Of a DNA stretch of 36,477 nt, positions 27,219 to 34,435 are shown one piece after another. Position 1 is the stretch's first letter, and each line of letters begins with the position of its first letter. The stretch is from a virus. The stretch covers positions 1-36,477 of IMG/VR virus record IMGVR_UViG_3300044970_001476. The stretch is one strand, 5' to 3'. Under the pieces are notes generated by a model, which was given only the letters and a program-made list of their open reading frames with translations, was not told the origin of the DNA and searched no databases. The translations under genes and the position numbers were made by a program.

Positions 27219-29651
27219 TTACATCGGAGCTTCTTCGGGCATAGGCATTTCTCCCATCGGAGGCTGCTCAGGCATAGGCACTCCGCCCATCATCTGCTGC
27301 AATTCGGGAGGCATGCCGCCCATCTCCATTCCGGGTTGAGGCTGAGGTTGTGCCGCCTCTCCCATCATAATGCTCAATCCCTGCTGAACCAACGCGCCCA
27401 TAAACTGCTCACCCATAAATCTATCGGCTTCAATTTGGGCATCTGCGTTTTTCTCCTGTATTTTAAGATAAGATTTTAATATTTCTTTTCTCGCCTCCTG
27501 TTCGGCTTTTACAAGCTCCATCTGTGTAAGACCATCTGATTGTTCTTTGGCGGCTGCTTTTGCGGACTCTTCTTTCTGTTTTTCCCGTCTCTGAATGTAC
27601 ATGGCAAGCGCACCCTGTATCAGCTTCGGGTTTGCCCCCTGATCCAACAGCGACTGAATAAGCACAAATTCAGATGCAGTAATACCGGCTCCTCCGTTTC
27701 TGTCGGTTGCCATCGCGTCCATTGCGGCCTGCTCAATCTTCATCCGCATTTGGTCATTGATTCGCGGAACAAGGTTTATGCCATACTGAGACAACTCTTT
27801 GGATGCATTTTTAATCATCTCTACGTTTGCCTCACCCAATATGTCGTAGTAGTCTTTTGCAACCTCCTCGTTGTGTCTGAATACAATCTGACCGCGAAGA
27901 ATTACGTTTGTAGCGGCCATTTTCTTAATGTCCCGATAGAGGTTTACAATCGGCTTCATCACGTTGGTTGTCGCACCGAGGGCAATCTCACTAACACCCT
28001 TACCCGTTTTTGCAGGCATGTTACTTGCCGTTGCCTGTCTTGACAATCCAGTAAGTTCCTGCAACATGTCAATCATCAGGTTCCAAGAACCGACAAACTC
28101 ATTAAGCGCCTGACCGATACCGCCCGGCATCTGAATAACGGGCGCACCCGCGTTTGGTGCAATCGCCGCCATTCCCCTTGCATTAACCGTTTTAAAGAAC
28201 AATCTTCCCGACTGCTCGCTCATTCTGATGATTTGGTCGGGAGTAAGTTTCCCGCCCAAGGTTGAGTTTATCAACTGAGCTTCGTCATACGCATATCCGT
28301 CAGGACGGGCCTTGGCCCATGAGTTCTGAAACTTGAGCCAAGCCAACTGCATCTGATGAAACACGGGAGAGGCTGACTCTACCGGGCTTGGCGTGGTAAG
28401 TTCTACATAATGGAAAGAACAATTCGCCCTTGTTTTATCGGGGCGAGGAATGTCGAACTGCATGCCATAGTCGTATACCATGTCGGTTCCGACAACCCAC
28501 TTAGCCCTGTAATAACATGGCGTTCTTGTGACATGCGTTTTTCTTTTGGCGCTGTTTCGCACCCTTCCGTATTCTTCCGGGTAGTATTTCTCACCTTTTT
28601 CGCTTTTAACTTCTGTCGTGTATCTTTTGTCAACTGTTGCATACTCGCAGTCAAGAACAAGAATTTTGATATTGTCGTAAAAATACGTGTTGAGTAATGT
28701 CTTGGATAAATTCTGATTAGCCTTGTTTCTTTCAAACACTTCTCGGCTCATGTTACCGAAAAATCCGAGATATGTTCCTGCGGCACGAACCAAATCCTCT
28801 TCCTCAAACCCTGATTCGGCACGAAGCTCGGAAATGGTCATAAGCACAAACTCACCTCCGTCAATCAGCGTTCCGTCGCTTCTCTTTCTCAGGATGCAGT
28901 TGCCCGGATCCACATACCGCACGGTGACTTTCTGCGTAACCTCGTCAACATAATCCTTCACCACCGCGCGGCCTATATCCCACAAGTCCTCAAGAATTTT
29001 ATCCTTGATTTTCTCAGGCCATCTGCTGATGACATCAAACGTGGCCTTGATAAACTGCTCAATACCCAACTCTTCCTCAAGTCTGAACATACCGAGTCCG
29101 TCCATAACTTCCAACTCGGTCATATTTTCAGGCTCAAACGGCTTCGGGTTTACATCCTCCTGAGAAATAGGCCCGGCCATCTGCAACTGCTCAAATCCCT
29201 GCGTAATTTTGGGCATAATCTTGGCATCAACCCAAGCCTTCCACTTTTTTTCTTCTTTCTTGCGTCCTGCAAACGGATTCAGCGATGTGGCCTGTATTTC
29301 GTAATCAATATCCGTAAACATTCCGATGAACGCATTGCGATATTTCACCGCAATTTTGAGAATTTCCCAATTCACGTTCATGTAGCCCTTGCGGATAACT
29401 TCCCCGTTGGCCTCACGCCCGTAGCACATTTGGTAGTAAAGGTCATCGGGCTGCTTACCCACCGCAAGTCTGCGCAATCCGTCAAATCTGACCCGGTCTG
29501 AGTATCCCCAAAGGGTTTCGTTCCTCAGCCATGCAGAATAAAACGCACGGGCAAATTGCAAGGCATACTCCTTGGTCTGCTTTACTTCCGGAGATACATC
29601 ATGCTTCGGAAAATTTAGAATGTCTTGAGAGCTACTCCCTATGTTTATCAC
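27219..29651 (-). CDS. Portal protein, 810 aa
   Basis: An 810-aa protein upstream of scaffold and capsid, with portal-like character: helical N-terminus (ALQFARAFYSAWLRNETLWGYSDRVRFDGLRRL), a central mixed region, the long helical segment RLFFKTVNARGMAAIAPNAG to SWNLMIDMLQELTGLSRQATASN (a 'G.s..A.G' type portal core), and a C-terminal tail rich in Met, Pro, Gly and Gln (about 760-810). The length matches crAss-like phage portals (about 800). The portal forms the dodecameric vertex through which DNA enters and leaves. The start is GTG at 29651, 20 nt after a TATGTTTG box. A reverse-oriented repeat variant (27823-27836) encodes GEANV. Confidence 0.75.
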   Translation of the reverse strand: MINIGSSSQDILNFPKHDVSPEVKQTKEYALQFARAFYSAWLRNETLWGYSDRVRFDGLRRLAVGKQPDDLYYQMCYGREANGEVIRKGYMNVNWEILKIAVKYRNAFIGMFTDIDYEIQATSLNPFAGRKKEEKKWKAWVDAKIMPKITQGFEQLQMAGPISQEDVNPKPFEPENMTELEVMDGLGMFRLEEELGIEQFIKATFDVISRWPEKIKDKILEDLWDIGRAVVKDYVDEVTQKVTVRYVDPGNCILRKRSDGTLIDGGEFVLMTISELRAESGFEEEDLVRAAGTYLGFFGNMSREVFERNKANQNLSKTLLNTYFYDNIKILVLDCEYATVDKRYTTEVKSEKGEKYYPEEYGRVRNSAKRKTHVTRTPCYYRAKWVVGTDMVYDYGMQFDIPRPDKTRANCSFHYVELTTPSPVESASPVFHQMQLAWLKFQNSWAKARPDGYAYDEAQLINSTLGGKLTPDQIIRMSEQSGRLFFKTVNARGMAAIAPNAGAPVIQMPGGIGQALNEFVGSWNLMIDMLQELTGLSRQATASNMPAKTGKGVSEIALGATTNVMKPIVNLYRDIKKMAATNVILRGQIVFRHNEEVAKDYYDILGEANVEMIKNASKELSQYGINLVPRINDQMRMKIEQAAMDAMATDRNGGAGITASEFVLIQSLLDQGANPKLIQGALAMYIQRREKQKEESAKAAAKEQSDGLTQMELVKAEQEARKEILKSYLKIQEKNADAQIEADRFMGEQFMGALVQQGLSIMMGEAAQPQPQPGMEMGGMPPELQQMMGGVPMPEQPPMGEMPMPEEAPM
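27823..27836 (-). repeat. Dispersed repeat variant in reverse orientation (portal gene)
   Basis: On the minus strand GGTGAGGCAAACGT; the first 11 bases match the consensus. It is read in the sense direction as G-E-A-N-V, a different reading from the SVASP copies. Confidence 0.5.
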
Positions 29652-29671
29652 AGGTATCTTAATTTAAACCA

Positions 29672-29679
29672 CAAACATA
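29672..29679 (-). promoter_or_regulatory. -7 element TATGTTTG for the portal gene
   Basis: TATGTTTG fits TAnnTTTG and lies 20 nt upstream of the GTG start at 29651. No clear -33 box; an AT-only hairpin (AAAGTT/AACTTT, 29682-29697) overlaps the end of the DUF3310 gene just upstream. Confidence 0.45.
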
Positions 29680-29689
29680 CAAAAGTTTT

Positions 29690-29929
29690 TTAACTTTCAT
29701 AATCCTTGGCCAAGGTTTCGTTTTTTAATTTTTCAATTTCCCTGTTCAAGTACCACTTCGCCTTTTCCAAATCCTGAATAAGCGTGTTGTTGTTTTTCTT
29801 ACCCGCCCTTGAGATATACTTCACGACATTGCCCAAGCAAAATCCGAGATTCCAAGCCTCAATGACTTTTATGGCTTCATAAACATTTTCTTTTCCCCCG
29901 TAATGGGAAGGGTGATTTACATTTTCCAT
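29690..29929 (-). CDS. DUF3310 family protein, 79 aa
   Basis: A 79-aa protein with the DUF3310 signature seen in many phages: NHPSHYGG near the N-terminus, then YEAIKVIEAWNLGFCLGNVVKYISRAGKKNNN and DLEKAKWYLNREIEKL. DUF3310 proteins occur beside phage nucleotide-metabolism and replication genes and are thought to interact with nucleotides, but their activity is not established. Here the gene directly follows the primase-helicase (10-nt gap), ending the replication unit before the structural genes. Confidence 0.9.
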   Translation of the reverse strand: MENVNHPSHYGGKENVYEAIKVIEAWNLGFCLGNVVKYISRAGKKNNNTLIQDLEKAKWYLNREIEKLKNETLAKDYES

Positions 29930-29939
29930 GATTTTTTAT

Positions 29940-31736
29940 TTAAAACGGATCGTCCTCCAACGGCTCAAAGTTATCAAACACCTGAGTAAATTCCTCTCTG
30001 TTCGGAACTATCGGCCTCTCGGACTTAACTTCAAAATTTATCTTCGGCTGACTCGCGGATGAGTCAATCCATGACCTGTAATCGGGATTTATGGGGTCTT
30101 GAAATCTGCCGGAATGTATGTCGTACTGATAAGACACCATACCCCTGTCTCCCCAATGCGAGAACTTCACTTTCTGAATATAAATCTCGGAACATTCCTG
30201 ACCTTCCACGGTGTTTCTGTACACGCAGAATCCGTTGTCGGTTTTGTTGTAGAAGTTTGCAGAGCCGTTGATGTCGTAAAGGTTAGGCACGACAAAGTAC
30301 CCGTCCTTCTCCTTCGGCATCTTACGCGGGTGAGCCACGAGGATGCAATGGATATTCTCATGCTCGCAGAACATCGCCAACTTGTCAAGACTCTCCCCGA
30401 TGTACTTGCTTTCATTTTCCCCGTACTTGTGTTCCAGCTTATTCCAAGCATCTATCACGAACATATCTATGCCCTTCTGCCTGCGAAGTTGCTTAACGTG
30501 CGAAAGAATCGTGTCAAGGGTAAAATCTTTCTCAGGCTTCACAAACCAAAACTTCTCATTCAGATAATTTTTTACCGATGCAAGTTCCGAGGGTGTTATC
30601 TTCCCGTTTCCGAACCAAGGCTTGCCTGTAAGTTTTCTTGCCAACTTTGAGAAGTGAAGCTGCGTGGGCTTGTTCTCAGGTGAGTAAAATGCCGTTTTCC
30701 ATCCCGCATTCACAAGCAGCTTCAAACATATTTGGTCAACGAAGTCAGACTTTCCGTGACCGGGTATTCCCGTTACGGTGGTGATGTAGCCCTTCACAAA
30801 CCGAAGGTGGTTATCAAACTTGCCCATGCCTGTCGGTGTCCCGTTATCAAGACCGTTGGCGTACAGGTCGTCAATGTCAAGGTCTATGTCGGCAATGGTA
30901 AAAGCCCCCTCAAGAGGAAAGTTTTTTGCGGAGAGGATTGCATTCCTCACCGAAACAACTCCCTCTGCCATCATCAGTTCGTTAAGGTCTTTGTACACAT
31001 CGCTCTCCCAATACTTACACCTCTCAACCCCAAATCGGTGTGCAATGTCCTGTCTCAGCTTACGGCCCGGTGCATCGTTGTCCGTGGCGATGATGATTTC
31101 CGAAACATGGTTGAACAACGGGTGGCAGTTCTCCAAATACTCAAGATTGTTGTTCTTCGGATTTGCCCCGTTAGGCACGGACAGCACATTTTCAATCCCG
31201 CATTGTATCAAAGTCAGCGCATCCATCTCTCCCTCCACGATGATGATTTTTTCGTGATTCTGCACCGCGTCAAGGTTGTAAAATATCAGTTCGCTGTCCT
31301 TGTGCAGCTTGAAATTTTTATTGCCATCGCGGTACTTTACGTTTATAAGTTCACCTTCGTAGAAGTAGTTGAACTGCACGGTGTTAACTTCCTTCTGATG
31401 CTGAGGCATCCACTCCAAACCTTCGGAAATCTTCATGGCATTCAGTGTCTCCTGCTTGATTCCTCTTGACTCAAACCACTTCACCAATTTCTCGCTCAGG
31501 CCGGTCTTATTCTTCCACACGGGCTTCACGTAAACCTTCGGCTGTATTCTCTCCTCCTTCAGAAACCCTTTCCAATCGCAATGGTGGCAATGCCAAACCT
31601 TTTTGTCCAAGTTCACAGAAAGGCACTTGTCGGATTTCTTCTTGCGGGTGTGTGAGCATTCGGGACACAGCGTGTAATGCTCACCGCTTATCTTGTTCGC
31701 GGGAACCTTAATCCCGTACTTTTCGTAAGTTTCCAT
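29940..31736 (-). CDS. Primase-helicase (T7 gp4/Twinkle type)
   Basis: A 598-aa fusion of primase and hexameric helicase. A zinc-binding domain is visible (C24-x2-C27 ... C50-x2-C53, CPEC and CHHC), then a Toprim domain with IIIVEGEMDALTLIQCG (E168/E170/D172) and IIATDNDAPGRK (D219/D221), and a RecA-like helicase domain with Walker A GIPGHGKS (323-330) and a Walker B-like region MFVIDAWNKLEHKY. The C-terminus ends FEPLEDDPF, similar to the SSB-like protein's acidic tip. The start overlaps the upstream stop as TGATG. It would prime and unwind at the phage fork. A repeat-like sequence (30921-30951) lies within its coding region. Confidence 0.92.
   Translation of the reverse strand: METYEKYGIKVPANKISGEHYTLCPECSHTRKKKSDKCLSVNLDKKVWHCHHCDWKGFLKEERIQPKVYVKPVWKNKTGLSEKLVKWFESRGIKQETLNAMKISEGLEWMPQHQKEVNTVQFNYFYEGELINVKYRDGNKNFKLHKDSELIFYNLDAVQNHEKIIIVEGEMDALTLIQCGIENVLSVPNGANPKNNNLEYLENCHPLFNHVSEIIIATDNDAPGRKLRQDIAHRFGVERCKYWESDVYKDLNELMMAEGVVSVRNAILSAKNFPLEGAFTIADIDLDIDDLYANGLDNGTPTGMGKFDNHLRFVKGYITTVTGIPGHGKSDFVDQICLKLLVNAGWKTAFYSPENKPTQLHFSKLARKLTGKPWFGNGKITPSELASVKNYLNEKFWFVKPEKDFTLDTILSHVKQLRRQKGIDMFVIDAWNKLEHKYGENESKYIGESLDKLAMFCEHENIHCILVAHPRKMPKEKDGYFVVPNLYDINGSANFYNKTDNGFCVYRNTVEGQECSEIYIQKVKFSHWGDRGMVSYQYDIHSGRFQDPINPDYRSWIDSSASQPKINFEVKSERPIVPNREEFTQVFDNFEPLEDDPF
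30921..30951. repeat. Second copy of the inverted repeat-related element, inside the primase gene
   Basis: GTTTTTTGCGGAGAGG, a short centre, then CCTCACC. This parallels 19221-19251 (GTTTTTACGGAGAGG ... CCTCACC): the T-run, both arms and even the single arm mismatch are shared. Here it is coding (V-R-N-A-I-L-S-A-K-N). Confidence 0.5.
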
Positions 31737-32581
31737 CAGTACACCATCCTCCTTTCCACGGCAGGTTTTACAATAGGCATCTTTGCAGCCTCAACGTACT
31801 TGGTAAACTTCTCCTCCCCGAACAGCGTGTCGGGAGTAAGGTACTGCGCCATCTTCTCGTCATTTGCCCAATCGCGGTACTTCATCTCCACAACGGCCCT
31901 GAAATCACTCTTGGTGTATCCGGCCTTGAGCAGCTTGCTTATCTTCCCGATTCTTGACTTGTTCACGATGCACTTCTTTCCGGTTACGGCATTGAATATT
32001 TCCAAAACCTCATTCACATCCCCAAGCACGTGTATTTTCAATTCCGGTTTCTTGGAATCAGAGGCCGTAATTTTAGAATCAGGGGCGGCGGTGTCGAATG
32101 TCTCATTCGACATATTATCTTTATCTATTACACTTACACTTACACTTACACTATCACTTACAGCGATGTTTGCGATGTTTTGCGATAAATTTTGTCGCAA
32201 ATCATCGCTTAGCGATATTTTGCGATCGCTATTATCGCTTAGCGATGTTTTGCGATGTTTTGCGATAGATAATGCTTGTTCAAGTGAAAGTTCTCCTTTA
32301 TTAAACTTGTCGTAAAGGTCTGAGTGCCACCTTCTTAAATTTCCAATACCTCCCGACTTGGAACGCTCCTCCTTCTTATCCTCCCACTTAACAAGATCGC
32401 GTTTCATTGCCTGTTTGATCGGTTCAAAGGCAATCTGCACCAAAACATCATCCGTCTCCGGATTTTGGTCGTTGACATACCGGAGGATGTGTTTGAATAA
32501 TTCACCCGCCTTATCGTGAGGTAATTTTTCAACCAAATGAATAATGTCACAATACAAAATGAATGACTTTTTATTTTCCAT
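31736..32581 (-). CDS. Replisome-organizer-like replication initiator (probable)
   Basis: The preferred ATG (MENKKSFILYCDI) gives 281 aa; it overlaps the preceding gene's stop (ATGGAAAATAA). Residues 1-90 match the DUF6291-type N-terminal region (SFILYCDIIHLVEKL, GELFKHILRYVNDQ). Residues about 180-265 match the conserved phage C-terminal domain Phg_2220_C (VLEIFNAVTGKKCIVNKSRI through DTLFGEEKFTKYVEA), found in phage replisome organizers that recruit helicase to the origin. Between them is a Ser/Asp-rich linker (about 95-150) whose DNA carries a phased GCGAT array (32162-32266) and a hexanucleotide repeat. The next gene is the primase-helicase, joined by TGATG. Confidence 0.65.
   Translation of the reverse strand: MENKKSFILYCDIIHLVEKLPHDKAGELFKHILRYVNDQNPETDDVLVQIAFEPIKQAMKRDLVKWEDKKEERSKSGGIGNLRRWHSDLYDKFNKGELSLEQALSIAKHRKTSLSDNSDRKISLSDDLRQNLSQNIANIAVSDSVSVSVSVIDKDNMSNETFDTAAPDSKITASDSKKPELKIHVLGDVNEVLEIFNAVTGKKCIVNKSRIGKISKLLKAGYTKSDFRAVVEMKYRDWANDEKMAQYLTPDTLFGEEKFTKYVEAAKMPIVKPAVERRMVY
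32132..32161 (+). repeat. Hexanucleotide tandem repeat (ACTTAC), five units
   Basis: Five 6-bp units, one with two substitutions (ACTATC). On the minus strand they encode V-S-V-S-V. The block adjoins the GCGAT array in the initiator gene. Confidence 0.85.
32162..32270. repeat. Origin-like iteron array (phased GCGAT boxes) inside the initiator gene
   Basis: Eight GCGAT boxes on the plus strand start at 32163, 32172, 32182, 32212, 32222, 32242, 32252 and 32262, seven of them in 10-bp phase; three inverted boxes (ATCGC) start at 32204, 32225 and 32234. The palindrome ATCGCTTAGCGAT occurs at 32204-32216 and 32234-32246, exactly 30 bp apart, each followed by RTTTTGCGAT. Such phased iterons in an initiator gene suggest a replication origin, as in lambda gene O. 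Confidence 0.7.
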
Positions 32582-32792
32582 TTTCTTCCGTATTAAGTTG
32601 TGAAATTTCAAATTTAAGCCTTTTAGACAGCGCTGCCGCCGTCAGCTTATTCATTATAACCCCGTCCTTTACGTGACCGTTGGTTACAAATCCGAACACA
32701 ATGTGTCCCGAAGGAAGCCGCATAATGCGAACAGCCTTCTCATTCCCCTCTCTGTCGGGGCTTCCGTAAAATTGAACATTTACTTCGCTCAT
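32571..32792 (-). CDS. Small hypothetical protein, 73 aa
   Basis: A 73-aa soluble protein (MSEVNVQFYGSPDREGNEKAV) with a beta-rich first half and a basic helix (AAALSKRLKFEISQL) at the end. I recognise no family. Its stop overlaps the start of the initiator gene by 11 nt, so translation is probably coupled. It is the first gene after the structured leader with complementary-loop hairpins, which may therefore control this unit. A regulatory or replication accessory role is plausible from context only. Confidence 0.6.
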   Translation of the reverse strand: MSEVNVQFYGSPDREGNEKAVRIMRLPSGHIVFGFVTNGHVKDGVIMNKLTAAALSKRLKFEISQLNTEENGK

Positions 32793-33674: not shown

Positions 33675-33839
33675 TTAATTAACAATTGCCATCCTCACCC
33701 ACACCGAAATGGAAAAAAACACCAAACTTATTACTCCAAACAACGCACCCGTGTATGGCCGGTTCTTGGCCGTGCAATAGGCGGAGAGGACTGTCGTGAT
33801 GAGGCCGAACACCAATGCCAATATCTGTAATCCTAACAT
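33675..33839 (-). CDS. 54-aa two-segment membrane protein
   Basis: A short gene: MLGLQILALVFGLITTVLSA is a hydrophobic segment, a polar turn (YCTAKNRPYTG) follows, then a second segment (GALFGVISLVFFSISVWV) and a short basic end. Two membrane segments with a short loop are predicted by eye. The start has one of the best Shine-Dalgarno sequences in the window (AAAGGAGGG, 4 nt before ATG) and overlaps the upstream stop by 7 nt (ATGTTAG), supporting translation. It could be an early membrane effector such as a superinfection-exclusion or host-takeover factor, or a small holin; the early position argues against holin. Confidence 0.7.
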   Translation of the reverse strand: MLGLQILALVFGLITTVLSAYCTAKNRPYTGALFGVISLVFFSISVWVRMAIVN

Positions 33840-34417
33840 ACACCCTCCTTTGCCAACACCGCATCCAATTTCATCCGGCTCACCACCTTGTCAAAAAAAG
33901 CCTTATGTATCTGATGCTCCAAAGGCACATCGGCAAATATCCTGAATATAATCACATCCCCCTCATTCAGCCCCGACCCCTCCGGAGCCATAACAACCTT
34001 GGCCCTCTTGCCGCTTTTCTTTTTGTACATGATGACCTGAGACAAATCTTCCTCAATGGCCTCCGTAATCACGTAGTCGTTTACCGTGAAAACTTTGCCG
34101 TCACGTTTCGCAGCGATAATATCCTCATCCCTGACAAATACCTTGGCCACATTCCTTCCGTCAACCTCCTCAAAAATTCTCGGCATGCCTTCCTGCTTCA
34201 AAGCAATTTCCACGGCGGTTCTGTCCATCACGACAATATCCCCCACCTTAACCTTGCCTCTCCCCTCAACTATCACCTCCCCCACAACGGGAATGTGCGG
34301 CACATGGTCAAAATCCACATCCAACCACAGCCTCTCCCCATTATTCAGTTCAATCTCATCATTCATCCTCAGAAGCCTCACCAACACATAAGGCTTAACC
34401 GTTCTCTTTACTTCCAT
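33833..34417 (-). CDS. Possible GroES-like beta-barrel protein, 194 aa
   Basis: The ATG at 34417 (MEVKRTVKPYVLVR) is preferred over a GTG at 34423. The protein is beta-rich with two similar segments: VVGEVIVEGRGKVKVGDIVVMDR (about 46-68) and RAKVVMAPEGSGLNEGDVIIF (about 137-157). These resemble the GroES pattern '..G.V.a.G.G......v..GD.V.f'. Phage co-chaperonins of this type assist GroEL in capsid folding, but they are usually about 90-120 aa, so this would be a longer or duplicated form. It is first in the early leftward string, after the 143-nt structured leader. Fold assignment is tentative. Confidence 0.35.
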   Translation of the reverse strand: MEVKRTVKPYVLVRLLRMNDEIELNNGERLWLDVDFDHVPHIPVVGEVIVEGRGKVKVGDIVVMDRTAVEIALKQEGMPRIFEEVDGRNVAKVFVRDEDIIAAKRDGKVFTVNDYVITEAIEEDLSQVIMYKKKSGKRAKVVMAPEGSGLNEGDVIIFRIFADVPLEHQIHKAFFDKVVSRMKLDAVLAKEGVC

Positions 34418-34435
34418 ACACACTATTTAACAATT

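Follow-up and report, generated by a model that had tools for sequence, protein, structure and literature searches.

The DNA analysed here (the window) is a virus record of 36,477 bases, with the gene of interest, encoding a replisome-organizer-like initiator, on its minus strand (Table 1). From N- to C-terminus, the protein features a DUF6291 domain, a linker and a Phg_2220_C domain, with scores of 76.9 and 64.9 bits relative to Pfam gathering cut-offs of 27.2 and 27, respectively. The open frame extends back to a TTG codon at 32611 (31736-32611); the ATG at 32581 is the likely start codon, and relatives begin at the equivalent ATG. The C-terminal half is related to the replication initiation protein phrog_428 of PHROGs, and together with Phg_2220_C and the neighbouring primase-helicase gene this suggests a role in replication. 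The primase/helicase encoded by the next gene is the probable partner loaded at the origin. Scans of Pfam and PHROGs gave no match of the initiator to the lambda O family, and the protein shows no AAA+ domain. Matches to ribosome-recycling factor (Pfam, PDB) were below cut-off or weak, and were judged compositional. Near the replication genes, positions 33833-34423 (minus strand) match co-chaperonin GroES in PHROGs, though weakly (E=1.3e-5). Immediately after the replication genes and a DUF3310 gene lies a gene for a portal protein (phrog_6547; 27219-29929, minus strand), which joins the replication and structural modules.

Table 1. Features of the initiator gene and its neighbour in the window.
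Feature	Position	Strand	Remarks
Initiator (replisome-organizer-like) gene	31736..32581	-	281 aa, ATG at 32581
DUF6291 domain (PF19808), putatively box-binding	32345..32566	-	Pfam E=1.3e-21
Codons of putative recognition motif EERSKSGGIGNLRRW, end of DUF6291	32327..32371	-	Peak mutual information with box class
GCGAT array, 8 direct plus 3 inverted boxes at 10-bp phasing; degenerate copies also present	32163..32270	-	
Palindrome ATCGCTTAGCGAT, copy 1	32204..32216	.	
Palindrome ATCGCTTAGCGAT, copy 2	32234..32246	.	30 bp from copy 1
Hexamer tract lacking C, GTAAGTGATAGTGTAAGTGTAAGTGTAAGTGTAATAGATAAAGATAATATG; candidate unwinding or single-strand element	32111..32161	-	Similar tracts in relatives
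Phg_2220_C domain (PF09524), exchangeable C-terminal module	31793..32008	-	Pfam E=7e-18
Primase/helicase gene (Toprim and DnaB_C), next gene	29940..31736	-	Pfam/PHROGs matches; order shared with elemo and tooticki phages

An earlier note on this DNA had reported GCGAT boxes, eight of them direct (seven in 10-bp register) and three inverted, as well as a palindrome repeated 30 bp apart. All of these were located between 32163 and 32266, the palindrome as two copies of ATCGCTTAGCGAT. Direct boxes start at 32163, 32172, 32182, 32212, 32222, 32242, 32252 and 32262, and inverted boxes at 32204, 32225 and 32234. The exact register holds for the seven direct boxes from 32172 to 32262, the first box lying 9 bp before the second, and the array also contains degenerate copies such as GTCGCA near 32193. 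The frequency of GCGAT over the whole window is ordinary (56 observed versus 53 expected), and 11 of the 56 occurrences fall within 104 bp (32163-32266), the largest cluster elsewhere consisting of 2. When the codons of the 35 residues concerned were redrawn according to the phage's own usage with the residues kept fixed, a mean of 1.06 and a maximum of 6 boxes were obtained, compared to the 11 observed, and 11 or more were reached in 0 of 20,000 trials. The array in the window cannot arise from codon choice. A spacing of 10 bp is no whole number of codons, and copies of ATCGC accordingly occupy every reading frame (0,1,2,1,2,2,0,0), so that the array is a DNA repeat and not a peptide repeat. 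It is the single such array within the 36-kb record. Cumulative GC skew is monotone, without inflection at 32.2 kb, and is little informative since nearly all genes lie on one strand.

The adjoining ACTTAC hexamer repeat (about 32128-32160) reads GTAAGT on the coding strand. The extent of 32132-32270 originally proposed for the element holds in part only, as the putative functional unit reaches about 32111 and thereby includes the whole C-free tract. The description of the encoded linker as low-complexity is likewise correct for the hexamer part (VSVSVSV), whereas the part encoded by the array is not especially so. Two aspects had escaped the first reading: of the two halves of the structure, the hexamer repeat is conserved more widely, and the sequence of the boxes follows a short protein motif.

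Scans of viral and genome contigs together with phage records yielded 214 DUF6291 loci, or 137 after removal of near-duplicates; a search profile from six diverse DUF6291 domains proved too divergent for the collections, and one from three closer domains worked. Contig L002, near-identical (99.9%), does not count as independent evidence. The loci occur in phages of Flavobacterium, Riemerella, Pseudoalteromonas and Vibrio, in one human-faecal phage, in Bacteroidota genomes and in one Woesebacteria metagenome-assembled genome, the set of 137 genes spanning phages of Bacteroidota and Pseudomonadota as well as gut phages. In Bacteroidota chromosomes DUF6291 was found in 4 of 395 genomes, two of them centres picked for carrying the domain, a rarity as expected of a phage gene. 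The gene on the Candidatus Woesebacteria contig (L096:2492-3694) is unusual for the length of its linker, which carries many GAAGC-type boxes.

The relatives that were read follow one order, i.e. DUF6291, box array, hexamer tract and a variable C-terminus. In the Flavobacterium elemo phages, for example, the N-terminal region of the initiator is 51% identical to that of the window and the C-terminus is different; the linker has an array of GTCGCA-type boxes and, as in the window, a GTAAGT tract. The initiator gene precedes the primase/helicase gene in both elemo and tooticki phages. All 64 aligned members contain DUF6291, but Phg_2220_C is found in 6 of them and DUF7833 in 6, indicating that the N-terminal domain, the array and the tract stay together whereas C-termini are swapped. 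Whether relatives retain the array had been set beforehand as the test on which the reading could fail, and it was passed. Under a strict rule applied to the protein only (alternating [VDGEKIA] and [NST] over at least 6 residues in the linker), the tract was detected in 127/137 non-redundant genes, such a run occurring elsewhere in 11, and 128/137 had two or more boxes of a single leading class. Of the ten genes lacking the tract by this rule, three are nuclease fusions, one is masked by N, and the rest have tracts recognizable by eye that narrowly miss the rule (e.g. GATAGTGTAAGTGTAATTGTAAGTG in L102 and GATAAGGATAAGG in L210). In 58% of genes the array was significant (p<0.05) against a null of resampled codons; this test was based on exact 5-mers, and the proportion is no higher because the boxes are degenerate, as in elemoC and PS_L5, where boxes are evident by eye and yet the test failed. 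In the 81 genes with significant arrays, adjacent boxes on the same strand are spaced by 10 bp (144 cases), 9 bp (60), 20 bp (45) or 21 bp (19), and spacings of 7, 8 and 12 bp are absent among such pairs.

Codon usage within the tract is extremely biased. Asparagine is encoded by AAT and AAC in a ratio of 491:1, versus 894:578 elsewhere in the same genes; AGT accounts for 164/170 serine codons in the tract and 221/1253 outside it; and lysine is encoded by 45 AAG and 18 AAA in the tract, compared to 772 AAG and 2153 AAA outside. The consensus over 771 hexamers is the C-poor G[AT][TA]A[AGC]T; 99.4% of the hexamers have A at position 4 and 96.5% have T at position 6. The protein rule used for selection favours position 1 and partly position 4 and leaves third codon positions unaffected. 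The simplest reading of this synonymous bias is that selection acts on the DNA of the tract. Synonymous-codon tests on both array and tract bear out the proposal that DNA rather than protein is under selection. The region beside the repeats is AT-rich, with 24.6% GC in the tract compared to 34.2% in whole genes for the 127 relatives; the tract of the window itself is less AT-rich than most. In an independent scan, viral contigs were searched with the tract pattern AATGWWAATGWWAATGWWAATGWWAATG alone. At least 81 matches inside open frames were obtained, and 66 of the 81 listed lie in a DUF6291 frame. Most of the other matches listed are in initiator-like genes with boxes present, and three (L256, L257 and L261) appear unrelated. 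The hexamer tract may extend beyond DUF6291 proteins. Genes at L237:9635-10354 (minus strand), L240:8084-9004 (plus strand) and L243:1362-2075 (plus strand) encode proteins of a DUF1376-like or similar kind, the tract being preceded by different boxes of their own; among these three, a Pfam match to DUF1376 was obtained for L243 only, and was below cut-off.

Box sequences differ between phages, with classes including TCGC, GCAAA, GTTGA, AACCC, GTTACC, GAACAA, GAACC, ATGCG and ATAAC. Called only from DNA downstream of the domain, the class tracks the last ~15 residues of DUF6291 and not overall relatedness. The motif GNLKRW, for instance, is found with TCGC and xSAExR with GTTGA, and NG-x-x-GGRPK is associated with AACCC but [AS]G-x-x-GGRPK with GCAAA; in the window, the end motif is G-x-x-GNLRRW. 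Among protein pairs less than 45% identical in the core and at least 60% identical in the motif, 73/82 (89%) have the same box class, versus 4/512 (1%) among those at least 65% identical in the core and less than 30% in the motif; these percentages are not probabilities since the pairs are non-independent and the class list was made after viewing the sequences. The profile columns most informative about box class, in terms of mutual information, are 73, 76 and 80-83. The AACCC class even crosses phyla, being found in a Pseudoalteromonas phage (L007) and in two Bacteroidota loci (L098 and L108). Judged from these comparisons, common ancestry of the core does not explain the pairing of motif and box. 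As box class follows the end motif and not the core, the boxes are most likely read by the initiator itself and would represent its own binding sites, which implicates DUF6291 as a probable DNA-binding domain.

What the sequences show directly is the anatomy, the fixed order of the two parts, selection on the DNA of each, their breadth of occurrence and the covariation of motif and box. We consider it very probable that positions 32111-32270 represent a phage replication origin inside the gene of its own initiator, repeated initiator-type sites lying within the initiator coding sequence. The idea of a lambda-like origin put forward in the earlier note is upheld with regard to anatomy (array, tract and order), from which origin function itself is deduced. 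For binding, opening, helicase loading and strand choice, we infer the following course of events. Several initiator molecules would bind the GCGAT boxes via DUF6291, the motif at the end of this domain setting the sequence of the boxes. With boxes one helical turn apart, the bound molecules would lie on one face of the helix, in a nucleoprotein array resembling the lambda O-some. This array would strain the adjacent hexamer tract such that the tract opens, making it most likely the site of unwinding or loading; one of its single strands would then be held by the initiator or receive the helicase, and the C-terminal domain would recruit the phage primase-helicase encoded next door.

The box array might instead be an operator or a partition-like site, with replication starting elsewhere and the initiator binding its own gene to block transcription or to segregate a plasmid-like prophage. 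Phased arrays of initiator sites can indeed regulate as well as initiate, and the gene that contains the array is transcribed and lies upstream of that for the helicase. Neither a roadblock nor a partition site, however, would need a directly adjoining C-poor, AT-rich hexamer tract, the design of which remains constant between phages whereas the class of the boxes varies, and we regard this explanation as unlikely. Even less probable is that a host factor, such as DnaA or a nucleoid protein, occupies the boxes: host-factor sites are present in many phage and plasmid origins, but the boxes follow the initiator's own motif, even across bacterial phyla (L007 versus L098 and L108).

Least credible of all is a pure protein feature, i.e. 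a flexible repetitive linker that arose by replication slippage and has no function as DNA. Slippage would also make codons uniform, and the tract does encode simple dipeptide repeats (VS, DS, VN). Against this, the 9-10 bp spacing of the boxes rotates the reading frame, and the tract mixes GAT, GTA, GTT and GGT with AAT, AGT and ACT while bases 4 and 6 are constant; slippage alone would not hold some bases constant while others vary. Moreover, the dipeptides encoded across relatives (VN, DS, GN, KN, DK) have no common chemistry, the DNA pattern being what they share.

Origins inside initiator genes are already known from lambda O and SPP1 gene 38. In lambda and its Stx-phage relatives, the origin lies in the middle of gene O and consists of iterons and an AT-rich tract (PMC7466680). 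The window is similar in that iterons lie in the middle of the initiator gene with an AT-rich tract flanking them, the linker being encoded by the origin. Unlike lambda O, however, the initiator has a DUF6291 domain, boxes in the family are about 5-7 bp long with 9-10 bp spacing and mixed orientation, and the flank is a patterned hexamer tract instead of a plain AT-rich stretch. The oriL of SPP1 lies within gene 38, encoding the replisome organizer G38P; it combines repeats with an unwinding element, the initiator binds the repeats and the helicase is loaded (PMC6316719). Direct repeats and a putative unwinding element inside the initiator gene are common to both phages, but SPP1 loads through a separate protein, gp39, and has oriR as an additional origin, whereas in the window the next gene encodes a primase-helicase and the 36-kb record contains one array. 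The closest parallel for the patterned tract is the basal unwinding system of bacteria (Bacillus), in which DnaA boxes are associated with DnaA-trios or the DnaD recognition element, and the periodic tract is read by protein as a single strand (PMC10201434). As in that system, double-strand boxes lie directly beside a short periodic tract, and the coding strand of the DUF6291 tract often has T every 3 bases, which is compatible with TnnT. Its period is 6 bases and not 3, however, the TnnT rule is violated by GTA-type hexamers (about 60% of the tract's valine codons), and the initiator lacks an AAA+ domain. Contiguous TA[GA] repeats next to DnaA boxes were not found, the period being 6 and the box classes not being DnaA boxes, and identity of the tract with DnaA-trios was rejected on period and polarity.

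Three DUF6291 loci encode fusions to nucleases, i.e. DUF6291-HNH (L012:2507-2977) and DUF6291-T5orf172 (L106:2495-3535 and L187:2492-3433), without tract or significant array. Reuse of an initiator-like DNA-binding domain on a nuclease is reminiscent of Odn, the origin-directed nuclease of phage ICP1 (PMC8263062), and by analogy these fusions could aim at the origins of rival phages; they lie outside the window. Outside the set of 137 genes, the scan with the tract pattern also matched DUF6291 frames at L282:13329-14030 (minus strand) and L275:9715-10404 (plus strand), which are open only if TGA is read as glycine (code 25), and a third (L229) read in this way by eye, pointing to phages of Gracilibacteria/SR1-type hosts.

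In the literature searched, with most subscription papers outside its scope, DUF6291 is not mentioned, and an initiator family with this domain, the hexamer tract and the relation of motif to box were not found. The tract, the motif-box code and any role of DUF6291 appear undescribed. On balance, we lean slightly towards the tract being a new sequence-specific opening element shared across phyla, combined with an exchangeable DUF6291 motif that codes for the boxes as a swappable module. If so, origin and recognition motif would evolve together as such a module. The analysis also assigns a likely function to DUF6291, which occurs in many phages and whose function had been unknown. The origin of phages with DUF6291 could be read from sequence alone, and the relation of motif to box predicts protein-DNA specificity. 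The hexamer tract would also provide a compact system for studying how a small phage initiator opens DNA.
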